The translations under genes and the position numbers were made by a program. The notes under the pieces were generated by a model that was not told the origin of the DNA, did not search any database, and was given only the letters and a program-made list of their open reading frames with translations. 64,000 nucleotides of DNA from Pseudoscleropodium purum (lineage: Eukaryota; Streptophyta; Bryopsida; Hypnales; Brachytheciaceae), in assembly GCA_963969395.1 (NCBI GenBank), contig OZ017795.1, positions 25,215,063-25,279,062 of the forward strand. The letters are read 5' to 3'. How positions within the stretch are numbered: the first letter of the stretch is position 1; each line of letters opens with the position of its first letter. Positions 5,201 to 60,782 of this stretch are shown here, piece after piece.

Positions 5201-8200
5201 CTTTTGGAAGAACTAACTGGGACCCTTGAGGGAAGTGTATCACTATGTGCTGAGGGCATCTCTGAACCTGTTGATGAAGAGGCAATTGTAAGATCTTCCT
5301 GGCAAGCAGGTCCTGAGCATATTGAAGTCAGAAATGGCATCATTGGATGGGATCAAAAGGATAACAACTGTCCTATTGAAATGCGAGAAGATCTGATGGT
5401 TCAGAACGCAGGAGCTATTGCGGAGCACTTGATTGGAAGTGATTGTGGAAGTGACCAAGAGAAGAATTGTGGTGGATCTGTGGGAATGACATCAACCACT
5501 GCATCCCCACATGCGAACGGAAATCTACGAGTTGCAAAACCTACTCATATGGATGGAAGTGACCAGATGGTGATTCTTGCGGAGGAGAAAGTAGGAGAGC
5601 TACGCATGTTGGAATGCCTTGAGGATTCAAATGAGGTTTTTTCGCCGCTGGAGGGAGAGCACCACAAATTATATGATTTTGCAGATGGGGCGTCTGGGGT
5701 GAAGAGGGCGATTTTATCTTATTCAGAAAGCCGAGCAGGTTTCGTTGCTAGTGAAACGGGATATGAGTCTGAGCTAGTTTCTCCATCAGATTTAGTTGTA
5801 ATCGAGCAAGATGTACGAAACGAAGAGGAGAGAGTGCCCGAAGGTCACATTGGAGAGATTGTCAATGTTGCAACAGATTCTGGTAATTCTGGGATTCCAG
5901 CCGACCAGGCCTTGAATGCAGATCCTGATGCATTATCCGAGGGGTTAAGGCAAGTGATTCTACGGAATAGTGACGCCGCGGTTTCAGAGTCGCTGGAATC
6001 TGTGCAGGTTTCTGGAGTAGAAATTGGTGTTGCTCAAGAGGCAGGAAAACAGGTGCAGTCACCCCTGGGAACTAAGGCCAAAGACGGGCACAGTCGACAT
6101 GTTGATGGTTTTGAAGACAGACATACTGATGATCTCACAGTCCAACGTACCAGACATCTTGACGAGCTCGAGGATAATGGAGATCAGCCATACGTTTCTC
6201 CATTAAACGTGACCGTCGATGATCAGTTGGTGAGCGCTGTGTTAATACTCATAAATGTTTATCTGCTGTGGTTTCCTGGCATATATTTAGTGCTGTGATT
6301 TTCTCTGTCCGTATCATATTAGAACTCATACTCTTTACGTCAATCGACTGTACTTCAGGTTCGTCCTCTCAAAAAGAGGGGCAGGCCACGCGCATACTAT
6401 CACGACAAAACTCCACATGAAACAGGGAGGCCCCCTCCTTCTGGATCTAAAAGAAGAAGCCAATTACAACACACCAGTAATCGATCCAGGCGAAATCGAC
6501 ATATTAATCCAGACCAGCCAGTTCTCGTCCTTGTTGAAGGTCGCGATGAGGTATCAACAAGGGAATCAACAGCTTCATGTGGACTATTTATCCTCACAAG
6601 TTCGGATATTGAATATGTTGTGAAAGCAGTAGAAATTAGGTAATGAGGTAATCTGGTAATCTGGTATATAGTCTGTTGTACGCCCTGTATGTTTTTGTTG
6701 CAAATCATTGTAATGTTTAAATGAAGTAAGATTGCACTGTTGGGATGGTACTCAGAGTGTTATAGAATCCTGCTTAATTCTTTTGGTTTTAATTTACTAG
6801 GATTTTGAGGACGCGGATTGCGGTCCATTTTGCCGATGGGTCACACATCAAGATGAAGGGTATGCTGCACCATCCCCAGCTGTTAGGAAAAGAGTTCGCA
6901 AGCATGACCAAGAATGGGTAAAATCCAGAATAGCAACTCCATCATTCCGGGTTGTGCCAGACTATGAAGATACACGGCAAAATGTTGAGAAGAGGAGGAA
7001 GGTTGTGATGGAACAGCATCGTGGTACTTGCGAGGTAATTTCGTTAAACTTGGAGTTTTTCAGCTGCTTTGCAGTTGTTGTTTTTTCATTTTTTATGAAG
7101 TGCCAAAGTGGCGACATTAAATGCTGTAGTGGTGCTCCAAATTTCAACATTCATCCACATTTTGGATAGAAAATATCACATTAGCACATATCACATATCC
7201 ATAATTCTGTTTTCATCCACAATCTGGCGATTTCATCGAAGTTTTTTTTTCAAACTTGAAGTTTGCTGGCGATTTGTCGCCCTTTCAGTACTATTTGTGT
7301 TCTAAGGGCGTGGTGCAGGGCCCATTACTTTGATGCAAATGGTTGCCTAATCGCAAAAAGAAAACATGCTACTGCTTTGCATGGAAAGTCTGGAGTTTCG
7401 GAGAGCTTGCCATCCCATTGGTTTGTCCTGCCTGGGAGTGCGTCCAGTATCCTTGTTTATCACCTTACTCGGAATCGTTGTTCATGGTTCGTAGATGCAA
7501 ACCTTAATGAGCTCGAGGACAGTGCGGGACTATGATATGGATGATGAAGATGAGAGATGGCTACACGCTTGGAACAAGCGGCTCGCACGAGGGGTCTTAA
7601 AGCAGCCCATATCTGAAGACAAGTTTGAAGAGATCATTGAGTATTTTGAGAGAATGCATGCTCAGATGGAAGTTGCTCCGGCTGATAATTTTCCAGGATT
7701 CCCGGTCTGTCAACAGTCTTCGGCACATTCTGTACCTGGTAGTTCTTTACCAAGCACCTCCCAATCAGGTCTGGGCTGTCTAAGTATCAGTCCAGCCGGG
7801 ACAGGTGTTCCAGTTCCGGAAAATGCACCTGCGTCAAATCCTTCTAGCGTTAGATCTCGACATTCTCTTTGGACTGGTGGTTTGAAAGATGTGCCGATCT
7901 CGGGGAACAAGGCTCCAACACAACAAAAACCGTCTGACGGTTGTTGCATATGTAATGGAAGCGAAGATGATGAGGATAACCCAGTAAGTGTGCTTCTATA
8001 TCCAGTGTGTTGTAATGCTTGGAGGATCCTCTAGGTGCAGCGATCACCAAGTCGTGCAAGCAGTGCCTTCTTAGGCTTCGTCTCTCTTTGCATTAGATTC
8101 TTTTAGTGGTTTTTTCGTCCCATGATTTCGGCCTAACTTGACCTTGTAACATTTCTACAGAATAATAAGGCGCATTACTCTTCAAGAATGATAACTGGTC

Positions 8201-40300: not shown

Positions 40301-42977
40301 ATTCTGCTGCCTGAATTTCGCTTAAGCGATGTCCCGTTTGTTAGATTGATGTAAGTTGACCCCAGTATTGCTCATGGTACCATCCCAGGCCTTGAAGAAC
40401 AAGAGGCTGTTTGTGTTGAACTACCATGACCGGTTCATGGGCTACATCCAGCGCATCAACGAGCAGAAAACCAGTCAAGCGTATGCCTCATGGACACTCT
40501 TCTTCCTCACCAAGGCCGGGATCTTGAAGCCCGTTTGTATCGAGCTCGCTCTTCCACCAAAGTCGGAGGGAGACAGTCCCATATTCCGAGTGTTCCGCCC
40601 TGCTGAGCAAGGCGCAACCACCAACTGGGCGTGGGAGCTTGCCAAAGCGCATGTCCAGAGCAACGACGCTTCCTGGCACCAAGTCATCAGCCACTGGTAT
40701 TTTCATTCTATTCAGTATCATTGATGACATATGCGACACAAAAACAGCTTGTCATAAAATATCGAAAGTTTTGTTCATTGTGTACTTTGGGACCACCTTC
40801 AAGTAGCTTTTGAATTCATGAATAAGTTACTCGAGCATCAAGTTGCCAACACGGGATCCAAAGCCCACTTAGTAAATGGTGTTTATCAATAGATACAATG
40901 GTATATGGTGTTCATGGTGTTCATGGTGTATTATAGGCTTGCAATATATTGTATCATACACTGAATAGGATAAGCAGTGAAAGATGACACGCACACTACA
41001 TTGGGCTTACGTGATCATGTTGATGTGTTGTGATGCAGGCTGCGAACGCACGCCGTGATTGAGCCCTTCGTGATCGCCACCAATAGACAATTGAGCGTCT
41101 TGCACCCCGTGCACAAAGCTCTTGTCCCACATTACAAGAACACCATGGACATCAACCAGCAGGCTCGCACCACACTCATCAATGCAGGCGGGATTGTGGA
41201 ACAAACTTTCACTCCACAGAAATACGCCATGGAAATCTCTGCCGTTGTATACCGAGGATGGCGCTTCGTCGACCAGGCCCTGCCGAATGACTTGGTCAAG
41301 AGGTACGTGACAACCAGCTTCTCTCTAGCTGCGCCTGGCTGTACTCACAGTCGTTCATAGGCCTTACAACAATTGATTGTAACCTTAAAATGCTCATATT
41401 TGTTATATTGGGCGTAATATTACAAATTGGTGCATTAGGAAAAAGGGGGATCGGAACTCGGAACCAGAGGAGATTGAGACACATCTCTGGAACTATATCG
41501 GTTTGAGACACTCATCTGAAATCTCAGATGTAGATCCATCTTAAATTTAGAGCTCTGAGGTTTCAGTCGGGCAACTAAAACTTTCATTTTAAGCACTAGA
41601 AAGTCCTAATTTTCAGCAGCACTGGAAGGTTCCAATTTAGGACCCTGAAATTCGCCAAACATGAGGTTTATTATTGAGAGCTCTGAGGTTTCAGTTGGGT
41701 AATTAAAACCTCATTTTAAGCACTGGAAAGTCCTAATTTTCACCAGCATTGGCCGGAAGGTTCCATTTTGGAACCCTGAAACTTGTCAAACATGAGATTT
41801 TGATTATTGTGGCAATTGTGTGACGTATATTTTCCAGGGGCCTAGCTATCCCAGACCCTTCTGCCCCCCACGGTCTCAATCTAGTGATTGAGGATTACCC
41901 CTACGCCAAGGACGGTCTTGAACTCTGGGCCGCCATTCGCGCCTGGGTGAAGGACCACATCGACCTCTTCTACGCCACCGATGCCGCCGTGAAATCCGAC
42001 GTCGAGGTGCAGAATTGGTGGACGGAAGCGAGACTCAAAGGCCACAGCGACATCACCGAGGGCTGGATCCTGGCGGACTCGAAAGACAATTTGGTGCAGA
42101 TCATCACCATCATCGCCTGGCTCGCCTCGTGCCACCATGCAGCAGTGAACTTCGGACAGTACTTGTACGCGGGATTCATGCCCAACCACCCTTCCTTGAC
42201 TCGGAAACTGATCCCAGAGGAAGACACGGCTGAGTGGGAGCAGCTGCAACAGAAACCGGAGCACTTTTTGTTGTCCATGCTGGCGAATCCAATTCAAGCG
42301 AGGATTAACATGACAGCTGTAGAGATTCTGTCCACGCATGCGACGAATGAGGAGTATCTCGGGCACAGACCGGCTGGTTGGACTTCGAATTCCAAGGTAT
42401 AATTATTTGCTCACTTCCTGTTTTTCCTTTTCGTATTCCATGGAAAAAAAGGATGAAGTTGACATTTGTGATATATCCATCTCTGTTTTTCTTAGTGATG
42501 TATGTGACTCAATCTCATTCGCTTTGCACTTAACGATTGTTGCCCAATGCACACTTGTTAACAGTAATCTGCACTCATTACTTCTTATTTGGTAGCTATC
42601 AATAGATTGCTTACTACTTGCATTGTGCTGTGTCTTGTTTTGGGTATATGCACTCGGATGGCTATAGGCCATCCCGGACTGCTTGTAGAATGCTATCCAG
42701 TTCATGATGTAAGGAGCTGGATTTGTATCAGTGACGATGACAGGGGCAGCCTCATAGAATTTCTTTTGTGTGTGTGATTTGATTGATTCAGGTGGAGGCC
42801 GCGTTTGGGAAATTCTCAAAGAAGATTGAGGAGATTGATGCTCTCATCAAATCAAGGAATGCAGATCCTTCATTGAAGAACCGAAATGGTCCCACGAAAG
42901 TACCGTATGAACTCCTCCGACCCATGTCCGGTAGTGGGCTCACAAACAAGGGTATCCCCAACAGTGTATCCATCTAG
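37392..42977 (+). CDS. LOX: plant lipoxygenase (linoleate/linolenate dioxygenase)
   Basis: Ten exons in phase: 37392-37824, 38431-38753, 38854-39079, 39426-39761, 39892-39977, 40101-40178, 40389-40696, 41039-41302, 41838-42396, 42792-42977; 932 residues. The enzyme adds O2 to polyunsaturated fatty acids to give hydroperoxides, the entry to oxylipin synthesis. An N-terminal PLAT/beta-barrel (roughly 90-240) is followed by the linker [21 protein letters not shown] and the catalytic domain. Predicted iron ligands are H596 and H601 (SHWLRTHA), H785 and N789 ([12 protein letters not shown]) and the C-terminal I932 (PNSVSI). Their spacing closely follows soybean LOX-1. The first ATG in the PLAT frame was chosen; about 90 residues precede the barrel, without a clear chloroplast transit peptide. 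Nothing appears broken. Positional specificity (9- or 13-) was not assigned. Confidence 0.93.
37800..38060 (+). repeat. tandem copies of the LOX exon 1 donor junction within intron 1
   Basis: The true exon end and donor (GTCAGCAACGAAGTGGATCC then TGGTAAGCTT, from 37803) recur as GTCAGTGACGAAGTTCATCC plus TGGTAAGCTT near 37875. A decayed copy ATCAGCAACAAAGTTCCTGT plus TAAGCTTT lies near 37959, and a trace (TTATCAGTTAAAATGG) near 38038. The period is about 73-84 bp. The second copy keeps a full GTAAGC donor. Confidence 0.75.
41551..41808 (+). repeat. 128-bp tandem duplication in LOX intron 8
   Basis: AGCTCTGAGGTTTCAGT begins at 41551 and again at 41679, followed in both by CATTTTAAGCACT-GAAAGTCC, GGAAGGTTCCA and CCAAACATGAG/GTCAAACATGAG. 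Two copies diverged by a modest number of substitutions. Non-coding. Confidence 0.8.
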
Positions 42978-51555: not shown

Positions 51556-54500
51556 TTATGATCGAAAACTTGGTAACCACTTGGGGGATTTCTTCTCATC
51601 CTGTTCTGCCGACTGGGCCTTTCTCAACGCACGGACCACTTCCGTCATTTCTGGACGGTCTGCCCCGAATGGTTGTATGCATTGCCTCGCAACCTCGATC
51701 ACCCGTTTCAAGGCCTTGGGGTTGTAATGGCCACCTAAACTGGGATCTGCGACGGTTTTCAGTGTCCTGGAACTAGCATTGGGATTGTAGTGTTCGTCCA
51801 CCTGAAATTCAAGAGTAGTTTCCAGTCACGAAGTCAGCATCTCATACGAGTTCCAAGTAATACGGTGGTGCAACACTCTTCAGTTGAGGAGCCTCACTTC
51901 TACACTTCAGAAAAAAAATCAATACTGCTCATGTGAAAATGTTGATGCGTATTTCGAGAATATGTATGTAATAAATAGACTTACAATCCTCCTGGGACGT
52001 TCCCATAGAGTGTTAGCTGAGTATGTAAATGAGTTTAGGGCCTCAAAATTTATCTAAGGGTTCAAAAAAACAAACACTTCAATATCTCACCCATCTACAT
52101 CTACCAATCCCAACCATCCACTAAAAATCAAGCCACTATGGGCAGTAAGAGATATATAAAACTTTTCATGGTCTTATGTCAAAGTATATCCCATCAAGAA
52201 GATAAATAATCTTTTTTGGTTTTATAGGTATTCTAAACAAATTGAACATCTCTCATAATGTTATTAACCCATGGGATGTCTTTCGTGAACAATATAGTAG
52301 AGACGGGTAAAGTTTGTTGGTTTTGGTTGCATAAGGTTAAGAATCTGATAATTGGAGATTTTTCTACCTCTAACCATTCAATGAATGGAACATATGGAAC
52401 ATTTTGACTTATTCCATAATGGAAAGTTTCCAACAAGAGACTCCAAAGAGGTCACTAGACTACATTGTTAAAAGTGACAAGAGATTGCGAGTAGCTTACC
52501 CAGTCACCGATGAAGCATTTTTTTTCAGAATTTTGGATTGGTTTCCGGCCTGTAATGATTTCCATTAGAATAACTCCAAAACTGTACACATCACTCTTCT
52601 CTGTTAGTTGGCCGGTCTTGAGATACCTGCACAAACATATTTTGAAAGTGAGATATGTGCACTAGTTAGTAGAGTTGCGATTTCTAACTTGCTGTTCATG
52701 TCGAGTAGTGCAACCCTTCGATAGTGGTTGCATCACATTATAACATGAAGTAAGTTTTAAGACCTAATGCTAACACCATTGTTGCATGCAAAATATCGGA
52801 GAATCAATGACATTGAAGAACTTAGTCTCCATGACTGATGCAACAATAAAATCATTGCATTGAAAAACCGAAAGTGGATTCAAAACATACTCTGGGTCTA
52901 GATACCCAAGGGTTCCTTTCACCATGGTTGTTACATGTGTCTTGTTCAAATTTTCTTGGTCAGCACCCAACTTCGATAGGCCAAAATCAGCAACCTTGGC
53001 AACCATATTTTTTGTAAGAAGAATATTTTGACTTTTGATGTCTCTGTGAATAATTCTAGGATTGCAACCGGTGTGCAAGTACTCAAGCCCTAACACAAAA
53101 AATTCCCACGCAAGTTAGCAAGTCTCAAGTCTTACCAACTCAGTCATAAATCAAAACGGAAAACATCTTTCAAAAATGAAGAGACCATTAAGGATTCTCC
53201 ATGCCTAGAACATTTATCCATAAACGAAGTACATTATGAAAAGTTTTAATGCACTCATAAGCAAGGTAAACCAACTGAAAGTGATTCTGAATTGTACCAT
53301 ACAAACCATGCCAAAGTCGTTTAAGATAAAAAGAGATTTGCCATGCTTATAACATTCAAAAAAATGTAGGAACAATGATCATACCACAAGCAGACTGTAA
53401 CGCTATGTTGAGACGTTGCTTCCAATCTAGGAATGTACCCCTCGCTGCAATACATTGCATGAAATGAATTAATTCAAGAGCAAAGCTCAACTACAAAAGA
53501 TACTCACACTGGCACAAAAAGCTCTCTCTAATGCTGAATGCAAATAGTAAACGCATATTTCTTAGCAGACACGAATCTGACCTTGAAGATGGTCCCATAT
53601 ACTCCCTTCTTCTGCGAATTCATATACAAGAACTTGTCTCTCATCTTGGCAGTAACCTAAGAGTCTAATCAAATTCACGTGGTTCACTCTTTTGAGAAGG
53701 TTCACCTGTCACAACATGACCAAATCAATGCGTTCAATACGATCCAAAAAATACAAAAGAAATCATACAAAGTTAAGCAAAACTCTAGTAGTAATAATTG
53801 TGATTCCACGAACGACACATAGTAGCGGGCCTCAAAACAAAATAGTGAAGGGATACATCATACAGACTAAGAATGATCGTGTATACAGAAATATTACTTC
53901 CCTAGATACTCGTCAACAAATTTGCTTTGTCCTATTAGTGAGGGAGAAAAATTAATATCACCTACAGAATTAGTATCACTACAAAAAATAATTCTTAAGA
54001 AAATTGGGATAATACAGTAATATTGTAACCACTAATTTAAATATTTTACAAACAGTGTGAGTTTGGCACATTAGTGTCACATGCACTAATAGAACAAATC
54101 AATGTACACTAATGACTTTCATTTGTGTAAACCAAAAATATTCCAAAATCTTGCACTGGCATGTAAGAAGAACTGTAATCAAACCAACCGAAGATCTATA
54201 TAATATGAAACACAAACCCTCATCAAAAAGTGCACATCGAAAATTGACATAGCACTGTCCGTCATACCTCATTGAGAAACTCAGATATGCCTTGCTGAGA
54301 AGATGCATCAAGGATTTTTACCGCCACCTCTTTTCCATTCTCCAACTTGGCTAAATAAACAACCCCAAAACCACCCTTTCCAAGTTGTTTGGAAGTCAGA
54401 TTATCCGTCATCTCTAGAACTTGGTCCCAGTTGTACTTCTTGACAACGTCTTCAATAATGGAATCACTTGTCATTATTTGCGGACATGAGGCATTGCGAG

Positions 54501-57500
54501 CAGTCTCAGGTCTCGAAGTTTGATGATTGAATGGCTCAGTTGCACAGATTGTTGACCTTTGCAGCTCATGCACTTTGTCCAATTCTCCAAACGCTCTGAG
54601 TGAACCAGAATTAGAAAATTCCTCCGAGCTCATGTCAGAGGTAGAGCTTGATTTGTATGTTTGTTCAGAAGAGACTGGACAGCTGCTCTCCGAGGCATTG
54701 CTCGATTTGCACACAGAAGACAGTTCAGCCAATTCATGTTGCTTGCTGCTTAATCTCTGCCTTGTTGATGCTTCATCCGGCCTACTCTCTGAAGTGCTAC
54801 TTGTTGCGTATGCTTGTAATGGTTCAGAAGAGTACTCCTGTGATCTACTCTCCTGGCCATTACCGGACTTATGCACTGAAGGTAATTCAGAAGGTTCAAG
54901 TCGCCTGCTCTCTGAAATACTGCTTGTTGTGTATGCTTGAAATGGTTCAGAAGAGTATTCCTGTGGTCTATTTTCCTGGCCATTGCCGGGCTTATGTACT
55001 GGAGATGATTCAGAAGACTCAAGTCGCCTGCTCTCTGAAGTGCTGCTTGTTCCGTATGCTCGTATTGGTTCAGAAGAGTATTCTTCTGGTCTGCCCTCCT
55101 GGCCATTGCCTGATTTATGCACTGGAGAGAATTCAGAAGACAAGACGCTTGGCACCCTTTCATATTGAGTATAAGGAAACACCTGTGACCGACTCTCAAA
55201 GGTGTTGCTTGATCGAGGTGACATAAATGGTTCCGAAGATTCGTAAGCTCTGGTCCCGAAGGTCTTACTTGGTCTGTATACTTGTGGTGCTTCAAAGCAC
55301 GATTTATCCTCAAAGCTGTGACTTGACTTGTATACTTGTGGGGATAGGGGAGACTCATGTGGCTTGCTCTCCGTTGGTCTGTACACTTCTGGTGCTTTAG
55401 AGTACGATTTGTCCTCAAAGCTGTGACTTGACTTGTATACTTGTGGGGATAGGGGAGACTCATGTGGCTTGCTCTCCGTTGGTCTATACACTTGTGGTGG
55501 TTCAGTTGCACGTCTGTCCTCTACACAACTCCTTGGTGGTGGTACAAGCACTTCCTTTAAAATGCGGGGTTCATGTGGTTGTGGTGATTCCGAGCCTGAC
55601 ATGCATGGTGGAGGTGGTGGTGATGCAGAAAATTCTTGTGAACTGTTCTCCACAACCTTGCTTAAGTCATGTCCTTGCGGTGGTAGGTCTTCTGCAAGTG
55701 GATATAGATCCCTCAACTCATTAAGAAGTCCATAAACTTGATCAAATTCTCGTTGGTTCACGAGAGCATCTAAAGGTGGTTCCTTTGTCGTCATCATCCC
55801 TCGTAGAGCTTGGAATTCCTTCCTTATAGATGTTGCCGTGTCTAACTTAAACGACTCAGCCAATCGTGTGAGTTGAAACGGTGAACGTGAGCGTCCGTTT
55901 GTCTCATCCAGTACAGATGTTAATTCAGCGTAGAGCTGCGAATCGACAGCATCTTCCAACCCTTTTGATCTTTTGAGCTGACTATGGACAAGATCAACCT
56001 GGAGCAATAAGAAAGATACGATTAACATCAAGGATGTCATCGGCAGAACCTCGCAACTTGCTTCAATACAACCCCACTTACAAAAAACATGAATATTTGT
56101 TAAGAGTCTTGAAGAGCAACCAAAATTTCAAAGCAAGGCTACTATAGATTGAGAAGCCGTTAGAATTTACCTGCTCTCGTACTTCTTCTGGAATTTCAAG
56201 CGAACTCGGTATCTTGTCCAAGGCTTGAATCAATGCTATGTTCACCAAGGAGAACTGTTCTACCACTTTTCGTTGTTCCAAGATCTAGAACAGAAAATGC
56301 TCGTCAAACTCATTACCATCAAAAAAGAATCCTGAGAACTGAGAGACTAGCTTACACAAAAGGCAAGTCTTGAAACTAATAACACGGTGAAGGAAAATCA
56401 CTTCCTCCAACAAGTTTCAAACCATAACAAGACCACAAACCACATAGAGAAGTGAACAGATGAGAAAAACAAGTTAGGGTCGTCCAATATTTGCAAGCAC
56501 ATATATTAGGCGTTCTCATAATGAAAAATTTTAACAAACTAAAACTCACCAGGTAAAGTTTACTTCCTTCATTGCACAAGAGAAGCAAGGCTTTGGCAGT
56601 GTTGAAGGCTGCTTCAAACGCATTGAAACATATAATGACTGCTTTCGAGAAAGATAAATCTGAAACCCGGAATTCTTCAAATAGTGGGACAAGCATGTTC
56701 GCACGCCTTATGAAGGTGGAACACTCCTTTTTATGGGCCTGAAAATCTGCAATGGAGCCAATCATGTGGACAGTCTCAATTATCTTATGCACTAGAGAGA
56801 TATGTGAGTTGCTCTCCATGGAGTGGCTTGATCCATTTGCTGAAGAAAATTCTTGTGACTTAACTTCTGCACTATTGCTTGATCCAAACGCTAGTGGTGG
56901 TACAGAAACCTCGTCAAACCTAATCATTTGAATGCCACTTCTTGGAGACGATATAGGTAACTCAAGCTGTTTGCTCTCATAGGAAATAACCCCATGCACC
57001 TGTAGTGGTTCAGAGTGTTCATATGGCCAGTCCTCCAATTCCTTGGATGCCGGTGATAAAGTAGGAAATATAGCTGGTCCACTTTCCAAGGCGTTGCTCA
57101 AGCCATATGCTTGTCGTTGTTCAGAAAACTCCTGTGGCTTGCCCTCTATAACAATACTTGATTCATGTGCTCGTGGTAGTGCAGGTAAATCTCCTTTGTA
57201 ACTTGGCTCTAGAGTTGACTTCAGCCACTGAACCTCAATAGGCTCTGCAAAGTCTTCTGACCTAACCTCCTCGGTGCAACTTGAAATTAGCGCTGGAGAT
57301 GGTTCAGGTAGCTCACGCGGCACAATTGATCCATGTACTTGTGGAAGTGGTGGTGCAGAAAATTCACATGCTTCATTTTCCACGGTATTGCTAAAGCTAT
57401 AAAACTGTGTATTTTCCTCTAATCCAACATCCACAACATTGCTTGGTTCAACATTTTCTTGTGGTCGTTCAAAAAACTCCAATGGTTCAAATGCTAGTGG

Positions 57501-60500
57501 TGGTTCTACAATTCTCAGCAACCTACTCTCCACATTGTTATTTGATTCACACACTGGTAGTGGTTGAGGAAATTCCTGTAAAGGCATCTCAGATGTATTG
57601 CTTGACTCTTGTAGTTCAGAAGACCTACTCTTCATGTTGTTGAATTTACATGCCAATGGAGGTTGAGAACTATTCTCTAAGGTGACGTTGCATTCAACTG
57701 CTTGTAGTGGCACGTAACTCAACTTTGGCGACCTAGTCTCAACAGTCCTACTCGGTTCATGTGGACTAATCGCATTGAAATTTCTTGATTCGTGTGGTCC
57801 TGATGGGTTGATGGGATCATGTGGATTCTCAGAGGGATGATACACCTACAAACAAGACGTGGAATTTAGAAGGCAACAAATTTGTTACATTGAATTCAAC
57901 ATTACTTCAACTTCGTGATTGAACCACATAACAAAGGCTTGCCAACACCAATTCATAGCATTCGTCATTAGATTCACCCCTAACAAAGCCAACAACCCCA
58001 TTTTAAATCAATCAAATTCTTCATCCCAGATTGTTGTAGTGAAGACTTGCAAGAAAGGTACTTTGATGTTGGAAATTCAGACCTGAATGGGAAACCTTTG
58101 GCAGCGCTCGTCATTGTCATTCACTCCACTAGTGACAACGTCAATATCCTCCTGCAAATGAAATTTCGAGTCATTGCAACCTTGCTTTTCATTGTTACTG
58201 CTTGCTTCTAATTTGAAAGTATTTGAAGGGAAAAAAAAGTTGCCCTTGACAAGCACTGTCTTCTTGAGAACAATTTTAATACAAAAATACAAGTTCAAAA
58301 TATCTCAAAAAGCTATGGTTATCGAGAATTGAATAATTTACCATATTAACCTCCACCTTCTTCCCAGTTGTTTTATCTTTAGCTAAAGCCGTCAAGATAC
58401 CGTCAGCATCAATGTCAAAACGCACAAGGATCTGAGGCACACCACATGGAGCAAGAAGAATCCCAGAGAGTTCCATGGTGGCAATCAACATATTCCCGCA
58501 TGCTTGAAGATTTTCGCCTTCGTAGATTTGGATAAAAATACCTGGCTGGTTGTCATAACAAGTAGTGAACAACTGCTCACAGCTCTTGGGAATGCTAGAG
58601 TTTCGTGCGTGCATCACATGCATTGTCCCTCCAACTATCTCCAAGCCTAAGGACATGGGCACCACGTCCACTACCAGATAGTCTGCAAAGGCTTTGTACC
58701 CACGAGAGATTCCCGATCGAATAGCAGCACCACAAACAACAACATCATCGTTGGCTTTCTTCAATTTTGCTTCATCATTGAAAAACTCCGCCAAAAGTTG
58801 TTGCACCTTGGGGATATGAGTAGAGCCCCCAATCATCACCACTTCGTAGACGTCGGTTTTATCCATCTGTGCACGTTGCAAACACTCTTCCACACATTGG
58901 ATGCATTTCCCAAAAAGGTCAGCGTTCATCTCCTCGAAGCAGGCTCGGGAGATGGTAGAGTGGAAGTCGAAATCTTCAAGCAAGGCATCAATCTCAATGG
59001 CAGTTTCCATCTCCGAGGAAAGGGCTACCTTGACCCTCTCCACTTGCTTCTTCAATTTCCTCACCACACGTGGATGACTAGTGATGTCCCTCTCGTGCTT
59101 TTGCGTGATTTCATGAATGAAATGATGGAGCAATCTTAGGTCAAAATCCTCCCCTCCCAATTGACTGTCGCCACTAGTTGCCTTGACTTTAATAACCCCC
59201 TCTTCAATGATGAACAAAGTCACGTCCAGTGAACCTCCTCCAAGGTCAAAAATCATGATTTTTTTCTCGCCAAGGGATGGATAGGTACTATTGGCTACTG
59301 TATACGCGAGGGCAACACAAACAGGCTCATTAACAAGGATCACAGTCTCCAAGCCAGCCATGCTGCAAGCGTTTCGAGTAGCTTGTCTTTGTGCAGAGTT
59401 GAAGCAATGAGGAACACTAATGGAAGCTGCATTGACAACAGACTCAGAGGAAACCTCGGCGAGATCTTTCATCTGTCCCAGGATCATAGCGTATATTTCT
59501 TCCGCAGGAAAGACTTTTTCCTTGCCCTTGTATTCGACATGGATCACGGGCTTGTCATCCTTCCCACAAGCCACTCGAAATGGCCACCGGATGTGCGCTT
59601 TGTCAGAATCGGTTCCCAAGGTACTGAATTTTCTCCCAATCAACCTCTTCGCATCTACAATACAAACAAGTAGCATCATGGTCACATTAGGTAAAAGTGG
59701 CATGTTTCAAAGCACCAAAAATTAAGACATTCAAGTGCCCAAAGCTCCAAAAGTAGAACTAGTATAGATTTGAGGTTGCATTATGATGCCTTGAAACTAA
59801 TAAGATGATCACTGTCAACTGATTGCCTAGAATATGACTCAATTTTGACTCGAGAAACAAAATGTGCTAAAACGTGCTAGGAAGTATCAATCTATTGCCT
59901 ATGACTTTTTAATTCTGCAGTACTGAGTGATGGTTGGCAAAGTTGAGCAGGTCCTATTGGGGACTTTCTTTTCTCCAATTTTAACTATTTCTTAACCAAC
60001 ATATAGAATGGTTTTTACTGATATTGCGGATACAAAATTTTGCCCCATCTTAAGGCCGTTTCACACATGGGTCGAAGGTCGAGAGTCTGTCGGCCTCCAC
60101 CAATCAAATTTCAAAAAACCCCGACTTTGGCCTCTCGACCCTTCACACAAGGCGACACAATCCAAAGTCCATCACCCTCCAAACTGCCTACATGGCAACC
60201 CAACTCCTACATGGCAATGGCCTTGCTACGAACTCTCAACCAAGAGTTTGGGTTGCCACTTTGTGGCAACCCAAACTTTGGTTAAGAGTCCATCAAATTT
60301 TACATTTATTGCCCATTTCTTTGGACTCTTGCCCACAGTTTAACCATGAACTCCCACAACCTCTCGACTTGGTTGGCCCATGTGTGAAGCGCCCCTTAAT
60401 TATGGTATTCACAACAAGATCAATTAAATTAATCATTTCCAAACCATGAACCCTTGGTCCCTTCAGGATAAAAAACACGACACTAAAACATGCTAAATCA

Positions 60501-60782
60501 TTGATAAACTTCCCTTTTCTTTAGTCTCAAGAAAGCACCTAGAATGACGAGAAACGCACCGAAAATTGTGTTGGCAGGGTTCTTCGACACTTGATCCTTG
60601 GCCGCGTCGCCAATGAGACGCTCCGTTTCTGTGAAGGCGACATAGCTGGGCGTACTTTGACTCTTGTGATCGTTGGAGAAGAGCTTGAAAAGATTCTCCT
60701 CATCCAACCAGATCCCAACACGACTGTTTGTGGTCCCCAAATCGATGCCAATGGCCCGGCTAGTATCCTCCGATTCAGCCAT
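51556..60782 (-). CDS. predicted Hsp70 - U-box N-terminal domain - receptor-like kinase fusion
   Basis: Eleven exons, all phases agreeing: 60782-60560, 59654-58342, 58151-58083, 57845-56550, 56284-56171, 55998-54268, 53705-53582, 53444-53385, 53089-52891, 52626-52500, 51801-51556; 1833 residues. Residues 1-512 are an Hsp70 ATPase plus start of the peptide-binding domain ([57 protein letters not shown]), without the lid. Residues ~878-1080 match the N-terminal domain of plant U-box ligases ([38 protein letters not shown]), but no U-box follows. The linkers on either side are Ser/Pro/Glu-rich. Residues 1544-1833 are an RD-type kinase ([11 protein letters not shown]1566, HRD at D1660, DFG at D1678, [26 protein letters not shown]). 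No signal peptide or membrane segment, so probably cytosolic. An upstream in-frame ATG exists at 60821. The weak point is the 58083/57845 join, whose donor is CAG|GTCTGA; otherwise two genes lie here. Confidence 0.72.
54800..55500 (-). repeat. two tandem repeat families coding the linker of the fusion protein
   Basis: A 123-bp (41-residue) unit is present three times ([15 protein letters not shown] and TSSTSESR blocks; landmark GCCATT(A/G)CC near 54855, 54978, 55101). A 105-bp (35-residue) unit is present twice plus part ([28 protein letters not shown]), between about 55260 and 55500. Both stay in frame. The segment is Ser/Pro-rich, probably disordered, and lies between the U-box-type N-terminal domain and the kinase. 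Confidence 0.85.
60053..60395. mobile_element. 343-bp PIF/Harbinger-like MITE in intron 1 of the fusion gene
   Basis: Inverted ends AGGCCGTTTCACACATGGG and, reversed, GGGGCGCTTCACACATGGG, flanked by TTA on both sides (60050-60052 and 60396-60398). A 3-bp TTA duplication with G-rich ends suggests PIF/Harbinger. The interior repeats AGAGTTTGGGTTGCCAC-type words and encodes nothing credible. It lies wholly within the first intron (60559-59655). Confidence 0.78.

Follow-up and report, generated by a model that had tools for sequence, protein, structure and literature searches.

A predicted moss protein joins a lid-less Hsp70 to a PUB10_N helical domain and a kinase of the RLK/Pelle type

In the moss Pseudoscleropodium purum, one predicted reading frame joins an Hsp70 that has lost its lid, a PUB10_N helical domain and a protein kinase, and this architecture of the predicted protein is well supported at the sequence level. 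Hsp70 is usually a free-standing chaperone. Fixed without its lid ahead of a helical adaptor and a kinase, it would provide a natural test of whether client binding can gate phosphorylation directly. Our preferred reading, to which we give a probability of roughly 45%, is a cytosolic kinase fusion: the altered Hsp70 would act as a sensor of clients or as bait, clustering would be passed on through the helical domain, and the kinase would signal. Such a protein would bring mosses, and a chaperone as the sensor, into the range of kinase fusion proteins, which are known as resistance genes of cereals.

Eleven exons form one frame across three domains

Exons rebuilt from the sequence of the window (i.e., the whole 64,000-nucleotide stretch of DNA analyzed) run from 60782 to 51556 on the minus strand and splice into a single frame of 5,502 nt, or 1,834 codons, whose sole stop is terminal; all 10 introns are bounded by GT..AG (Table 1). 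This is the same count, stop codon included, as in the original prediction, where the eleven exon phases had likewise agreed. The prediction had also read the frame as joining Hsp70, a PUB-type N-terminal domain devoid of its U-box and a kinase, and both the exon rebuild and a Pfam search of the spliced protein bore this out: HSP70 matched at aa 10–515 (profile positions 1–499 of 599, E 4.4e-152), PUB10_N (PF25368) at aa 907–1017 (E 8.2e-23, 81.8 bits vs a cut-off of 32.6), and the kinase at aa 1541–1811 (E 2.7e-51), while no U-box family was among the 8 Pfam matches of the whole spliced protein at E ≤ 0.1. The three domains are spaced by two long Ser/Glu/Pro-rich linkers. Within intron 1, at about 60050–60400, inverted ends (CACACATGGG...CCCATGTGTG) beside TTAA, together with an inner palindrome, resemble by eye a small transposon.

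Table 1 Coordinates of the fusion gene in the window, with related sequences and gene pairs found in the searches
Feature	Position or identifier	Strand	Content
Exon 1	60560..60782	(-)	Hsp70 N-terminus; ATG start at 60782; phase-1 donor
Exon 2	58342..59654	(-)	Remaining Hsp70 ATPase domain, linker and beta substrate-binding domain
Exon 2, 3' edge	58342	(-)	ATG|GTAAAT, without lid; edge identical in 7/7 related sequences
Exon 3	58083..58151	(-)	23-codon link, last residues PIQ; donor CAG|GTCTGA
Intron 3	57846..58082	(-)	237 nt; disputed junction; stops per frame 4, 8, 4
Exon 4	56550..57845	(-)	Ser/Glu/Pro-rich linker 1 and first half of PUB10_N
Exon 5	56171..56284	(-)	PUB10_N middle
Exon 6	54268..55998	(-)	PUB10_N end, more predicted helices, linker 2, kinase glycine loop, VAVK
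Exon 7	53582..53705	(-)	Kinase
Exon 8	53385..53444	(-)	Kinase
Exon 9	52891..53089	(-)	Kinase
Exon 10	52500..52626	(-)	Kinase
Exon 11	51556..51801	(-)	Kinase C-lobe, tail, stop codon
PUB10_N helical domain	55963..56732	(-)	aa 907–1017, spread across exons 4–6
Kinase domain	51625..54393	(-)	aa 1541–1811, exons 6–11
Tandem repeat, linker 2	55269..55521	(-)	105 bp x 2.4; multiple of three; 35 codons
Tandem repeat, linker 2	54780..55141	(-)	123 bp x 2.9; multiple of three; 41 codons
Further Hsp70-type sequences	P0121, P0122, P0123, P0126, P0127, P0128, P0130		72–82% identical to the Hsp70 part
Hsp70-family gene pairs, genome G000	C40 16865299 / 16895743; C47 21398251 / 21431904; C1 12073782 / 12104545	opposite	Own-genome search

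The same architecture occurs in Ceratodon purpureus

The search for homologues with the same domain order, proposed with the original prediction, led to Ceratodon purpureus M758_1G176500 (P0017; 1,890 aa, from a cluster of 3 sequences), a gene model annotated “hypothetical protein” that, from its sequence, is evidently the orthologue of the window fusion gene. Pfam placed HSP70 at 10–521 of this protein, PUB10_N at 930–1040 and the kinase at 1599/1600 to 1816/1867 by two models. The two proteins align end to end with 61% identity and share the domain order, the junction residues and a similar length, but they differ in the lengths and repeats of their linkers. Conservation is far stronger in the domains than in the linkers: identity reaches 78.6% and 77.2% in the Hsp70 part, 62.3% in the helical domain and 81.3% in the kinase, vs 38–48% in exon 3 and the linkers. 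Linker 1 of the Ceratodon protein has a period of 20/41 residues.

That two mosses have the predicted fusion, one of them the laboratory moss Ceratodon, speaks for a stable protein and against an accident. It also qualifies the earlier claim that no described protein has this order. The order was already public in P0017; the claim holds for the open-licence literature searched, in which we found no recognisable description of a plant Hsp70–kinase fusion. The architecture is a variant of the kinase fusion kind, which public data hold under the label of hypothetical protein and which the literature searched does not describe.

The join between exons 3 and 4

The central doubt concerned the splice 58083/57845. 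If intron 3 is retained, the frame ends with a valine and a stop at the TGA immediately past 58083, and the exon 3 donor (GTCTGA), which holds this TGA in frame when unspliced, is off consensus at +3/+4. Both features would suit two neighbouring genes, i.e., a lid-less Hsp70 ending at that TGA and a separate downstream PUB10_N–kinase gene, with the fusion an illusion of annotation. Databases do contain further models combining Hsp70 with a kinase that look like two adjacent genes merged, such as Anopheles P0098, in which a partial kinase precedes a full Hsp70. We nevertheless consider two genes highly improbable here. Exon 4, as the original prediction had noted, opens at a TTTGTAG acceptor with GTG and is free of ATG over a long stretch: Met first occurs at codon 71 (aa 606, base 57635), yet the 70 Met-free codons are conserved in Ceratodon. 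The join itself falls at identical residues (PIQ|VYHPS) in both mosses’ proteins, amid poorly conserved linkers, and intron 3 is closed in every frame.

The conservation at the start of exon 4 was well above that of controls. Its first 45 residues, all upstream of the first Met, aligned to Ceratodon with a score of 83, whereas none of 2,000 shuffles exceeded 58 and none of 82 other stretches of Ceratodon linker exceeded 47; exon 3 scored 36, barely over its controls (shuffles ≤35, linker stretches ≤27). The matching predicted protein in a second moss makes the join look real, and gene finders merging neighbours in both genomes would not be expected to leave a conserved peptide flanking the same splice in each. 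We regard the fused predicted frame across 58083/57845 as confirmed from sequence comparison, and the central doubt as much reduced.

Coding potential lent this splice weak support. Codons 1–73 of exon 4, which were excluded from training and take in the first Met (codon 71) and two further codons, scored 0.169 vs ≤0.051 across 264 intron stretches, the compared introns having also served as training set. By frame, this stretch scored 0.169, −0.059 and 0.160, such that the frame of the exon was not singled out, and the frames of exon 3 (0.103, 0.071 and 0.099) were not separated; the score of intron 3 was negative in all frames. Since retention of intron 3 would yield a separate lid-less Hsp70, both products are possible, and the spliced fusion and a free lid-less Hsp70 may both be made.

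The Hsp70 part belongs to a diverged clade

We searched with the Hsp70 part among long proteins (about 1,000–3,200 aa), where the 7,982 candidates sharing most words were scored and 592 passed. Among the best 120 of these 592, down to 480 bits, no PUB10_N was found beyond P0017, three Rhizopus rows having incomplete domain columns. A search with the helical domain gave P0017 as the sole match among 1,521 candidates. Among proteins of ordinary length, 7,997 candidates were scored, and the best 120 of 7,565 matches, down to 556 bits, included at least seven further sequences 72–82% identical to the Hsp70 part over shared columns; ordinary Hsp70s of Physcomitrium (P0138), Sphagnum (P0137) and Riccia (P0156) were 51% identical over shared columns. 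All seven further sequences, known from their Hsp70 part alone, have the lid-less exon 2 edge in common and run beyond the end of exon 2 into a valine codon, like an unspliced GT donor, and six of the seven enter exon 2 from slightly upstream of its acceptor. One of them, P0122 (520 aa, 12 member sequences), is unbroken through the position of intron 1 and may be a form without introns or one from a spliced model.

In a tree of 28 proteins, the two fusions and the seven further sequences formed a clade with 100/100 support on a long branch (0.89). Within this nine-member clade, the window and Ceratodon proteins sit in separate supported subgroups (99/95 and 100/99), so that the fusion, if of single origin, predates the split of these subgroups. 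The Physcomitrium and Sphagnum Hsp70s among the best 120 of 7,565 matches were of the ordinary kind. As a close orthologue from either would rank high, the fusion may have arisen after their split, or they may have lost it; a differently cut gene model could also hide an orthologue. Two ordinary Hsp70 genes of the window genome grouped with Physcomitrium and Bryum (95/90), the fork that places them beside Bryum being weak (82/47).

No second gene with exon matches 1–65 and 62–503 was seen among 42 Hsp70 matches in the moss’s own genome, which were checked by their pattern of longer exon matches; a paralogue of the Hsp70 part elsewhere in this genome is possible. As a side observation, three pairs of equal-scoring Hsp70-family genes lie in opposite orientation 30–34 kb apart (Table 1), as if from large inverted duplications.

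What the Hsp70 part has kept and lost

Intron 1 interrupts the same codon in the same phase as the first intron in two of this genome’s ordinary Hsp70 genes (L005 and L007), a third (L004) having no intron there. Because of this match, the Hsp70 part most likely derives from an ordinary cytosolic Hsp70 gene. A retrocopy origin is unlikely, the position and phase of intron 1 being those of the two ordinary genes.

The nucleotide-binding domain with its phosphate loops is retained, as are the hydrophobic linker, where DLLLLD has become DYLVVD or a near variant, and the beta substrate-binding domain (Pfam profile to 499). The lid and the C-terminal EEVD are missing: the HSP70 profile match stops at 499/599 and the frame runs on into the linker, in line with the original statement that the Hsp70 stops short of its lid. 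Equivalents of K71, E175, D199 and D206, which we take to be ATP-site residues of Hsp70, are present in 9/9 clade members, and that of D10 in all three of the nine that reach the site. T204 is replaced by S throughout the clade (9/9). R171, presumably the main J-domain (J-protein) contact arginine, is T, I or S in 9/9 clade members and R in 3/3 ordinary Hsp70s, and the equivalents of N174 and T177 vary within the clade. Compared with ordinary moss and liverwort Hsp70s (P0138, P0137 and P0156), the Hsp70 part thus combines about 51% identity, and the first intron and phase of L005 and L007, with fusion to other domains, the absence of lid and EEVD, and changes at R171 and T204.

A lid-less Hsp70 should bind clients weakly and exchange them fast. 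With the J-domain arginine and the lid gone, the Hsp70 part may be only a scaffold or bait. It could alternatively act as a constitutive chaperone in cis whose sole task is to keep the long chain with its kinase in solution or in place, with no part in signalling. The retained ATP site, the lost regulatory features and the long Ser/Glu/Pro-rich linkers would all fit such a role, but losing the J-domain arginine and the lid should weaken chaperone work, and we judge this explanation unlikely. The original prediction had drawn an analogy with CHIP, which binds the C-terminal EEVD tail of Hsp70. The analogy is weak because the fusion has neither a U-box nor an EEVD tail, and its helical domain also gives weak MCAfunc and MLKL_N matches.

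Helical domain and kinase

PUB10-type plant U-box ligases share the PUB10_N domain with the fusion, but here there is no U-box, and the PUB10_N match is internal, beginning at aa 907 rather than at the extreme N-terminus, and is followed by a kinase. When the domain was cut out, weaker MCAfunc and MLKL_N matches appeared in both mosses over much of the PUB10_N residues. For MLKL_N, the cut-out domain gave E 4.2e-6 (26.8 bits) in Ceratodon and E 0.0056 (16.7 bits) in the window protein, both under the Pfam cut-off of 27; the whole Ceratodon protein gave 22.2 bits, and MLKL_N was not among the window whole-protein Pfam matches at E ≤ 0.1. A structure model of the helical domain (Ceratodon piece) was all-helical with a mean pLDDT of 61.5, too uncertain for structural placement, and the helices after PUB10_N were predicted on the Ceratodon piece with low confidence.

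A kinship with MLKL would allow the helical domain to be a membrane-damaging four-helix bundle, freed by switching of the Hsp70 or the kinase. Besides the MLKL_N matches, this executioner role would have a parallel in the wheat resistance protein Pm13, which consists of an MLKL-type bundle, connecting helices and a kinase with all key residues, in that order (PMC10951266). However, MLKL_N stays under the cut-off in both mosses where PUB10_N matches far more strongly, and the domain lies inside the chain; HeLo and RPW8 domains, by contrast, depend on a helix at the extreme N-terminus (PMC12881547). We find such an executioner improbable.

All five kinase motifs examined (G-loop, VAVK, HRD, DFG and DPEY) are intact, and the nearest solved structures are SYMRK and FERONIA. 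No membrane span is apparent in the whole protein, in which the highest 19-residue Kyte–Doolittle mean (1.55) lies within Hsp70. The receptor-like kinase of the original prediction thus stands as regards the kinase sequence but not as regards a receptor’s membrane span, and an RLK-type sequence without such a span looks like a cytoplasmic RLK/Pelle-type kinase.

Comparison with other fusions and proposed working

Kinase fusion proteins such as Pm13 provide a closer comparison than CHIP. Like Pm13 and plant MLKL proteins, the moss protein has a possible weak MLKL_N kinship, predicted helices after that domain and, as in Pm13, a kinase with its catalytic motifs; unlike them, its helical domain is internal and nearer PUB10_N, with Hsp70 ahead and long linkers. 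Triticeae fusions (Sr43, Lr9 and Pm4) likewise join a kinase with intact motifs to an unusual non-kinase domain, and such fusion events are described as not rare, but Hsp70 is not among the fused domains named in the available part of PMC10260397. A passage on Hsp70 in PMC9614308 concerns chaperones generally. Annotations join Hsp70 to signalling modules in legumes as well: the models P0073, P0075 and P0091 (Lotus and Trifolium) have an N-terminal Hsp70, although NB-ARC and TIR take the place of the kinase and the Hsp70 profile match reaches 537 and 546 in P0075 and P0091. By annotation, these proteins hint that Hsp70 was joined to signalling modules more than once.

We infer by analogy that models for Pm13 and other kinase fusions may transfer to the moss protein. 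On the scheme proposed for Triticeae, the Hsp70 would be an integrated bait bound by Hsp70-targeting pathogen effectors, with the kinase signaling. PMC10260397 states a resistance-protein model for kinase fusions with an integrated sensing domain, and Pm13, with its MLKL-type N-terminus, and the legume Hsp70s ahead of NB-ARC and TIR are compatible with it, as is an Hsp70 part that has diverged far more than ordinary Hsp70s while retaining its ATP-site residues. Against a bait, the moss fusion is conserved between two species, with some 80% identity at either end, while the cereal resistance genes are described in the same paper as apparently unique to Triticeae, a 12-million-year-old clade. 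An immune bait is possible, if on balance rather unlikely.

We therefore return to the cytosolic kinase fusion that senses clients. The sequence shows how the parts are arranged, that two mosses have this predicted arrangement and that the ATP-site and kinase motifs are kept; each step of how it would work is inferred. The Hsp70 part would still switch with ATP and briefly hold unfolded segments, outside the usual J-protein cycle; the PUB10_N domain and the further helices, set between flexible Ser/Glu/Pro repeat linkers, would form a relay for interaction or oligomerisation; and the third part would act as an RLK/Pelle-type Ser/Thr kinase, its motifs being intact. A bound misfolded or foreign client, or an altered nucleotide state of the Hsp70, would be the trigger, changing clustering via the helical domain and thereby switching on trans-phosphorylation by the kinase, whose output would be a proteotoxic-stress or immune signal. 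The coupling of client binding to phosphorylation is, as judged from sequence, plausible for this protein. A bolder variant would make it a sensor class so far confined to mosses, in which the Hsp70 ATPase takes the role of NB-ARC in NLRs and client-triggered nucleotide switching of the lid-less Hsp70 oligomerises an MLKL/RPW8-related bundle and the kinase, for a cell-death signal in stress or immunity; this we regard as a long shot.

Elsewhere in the window, open frames at 41824–42399 (+) and 7495–8031 (+) match a lipoxygenase and an enhancer-of-polycomb-like protein, respectively.
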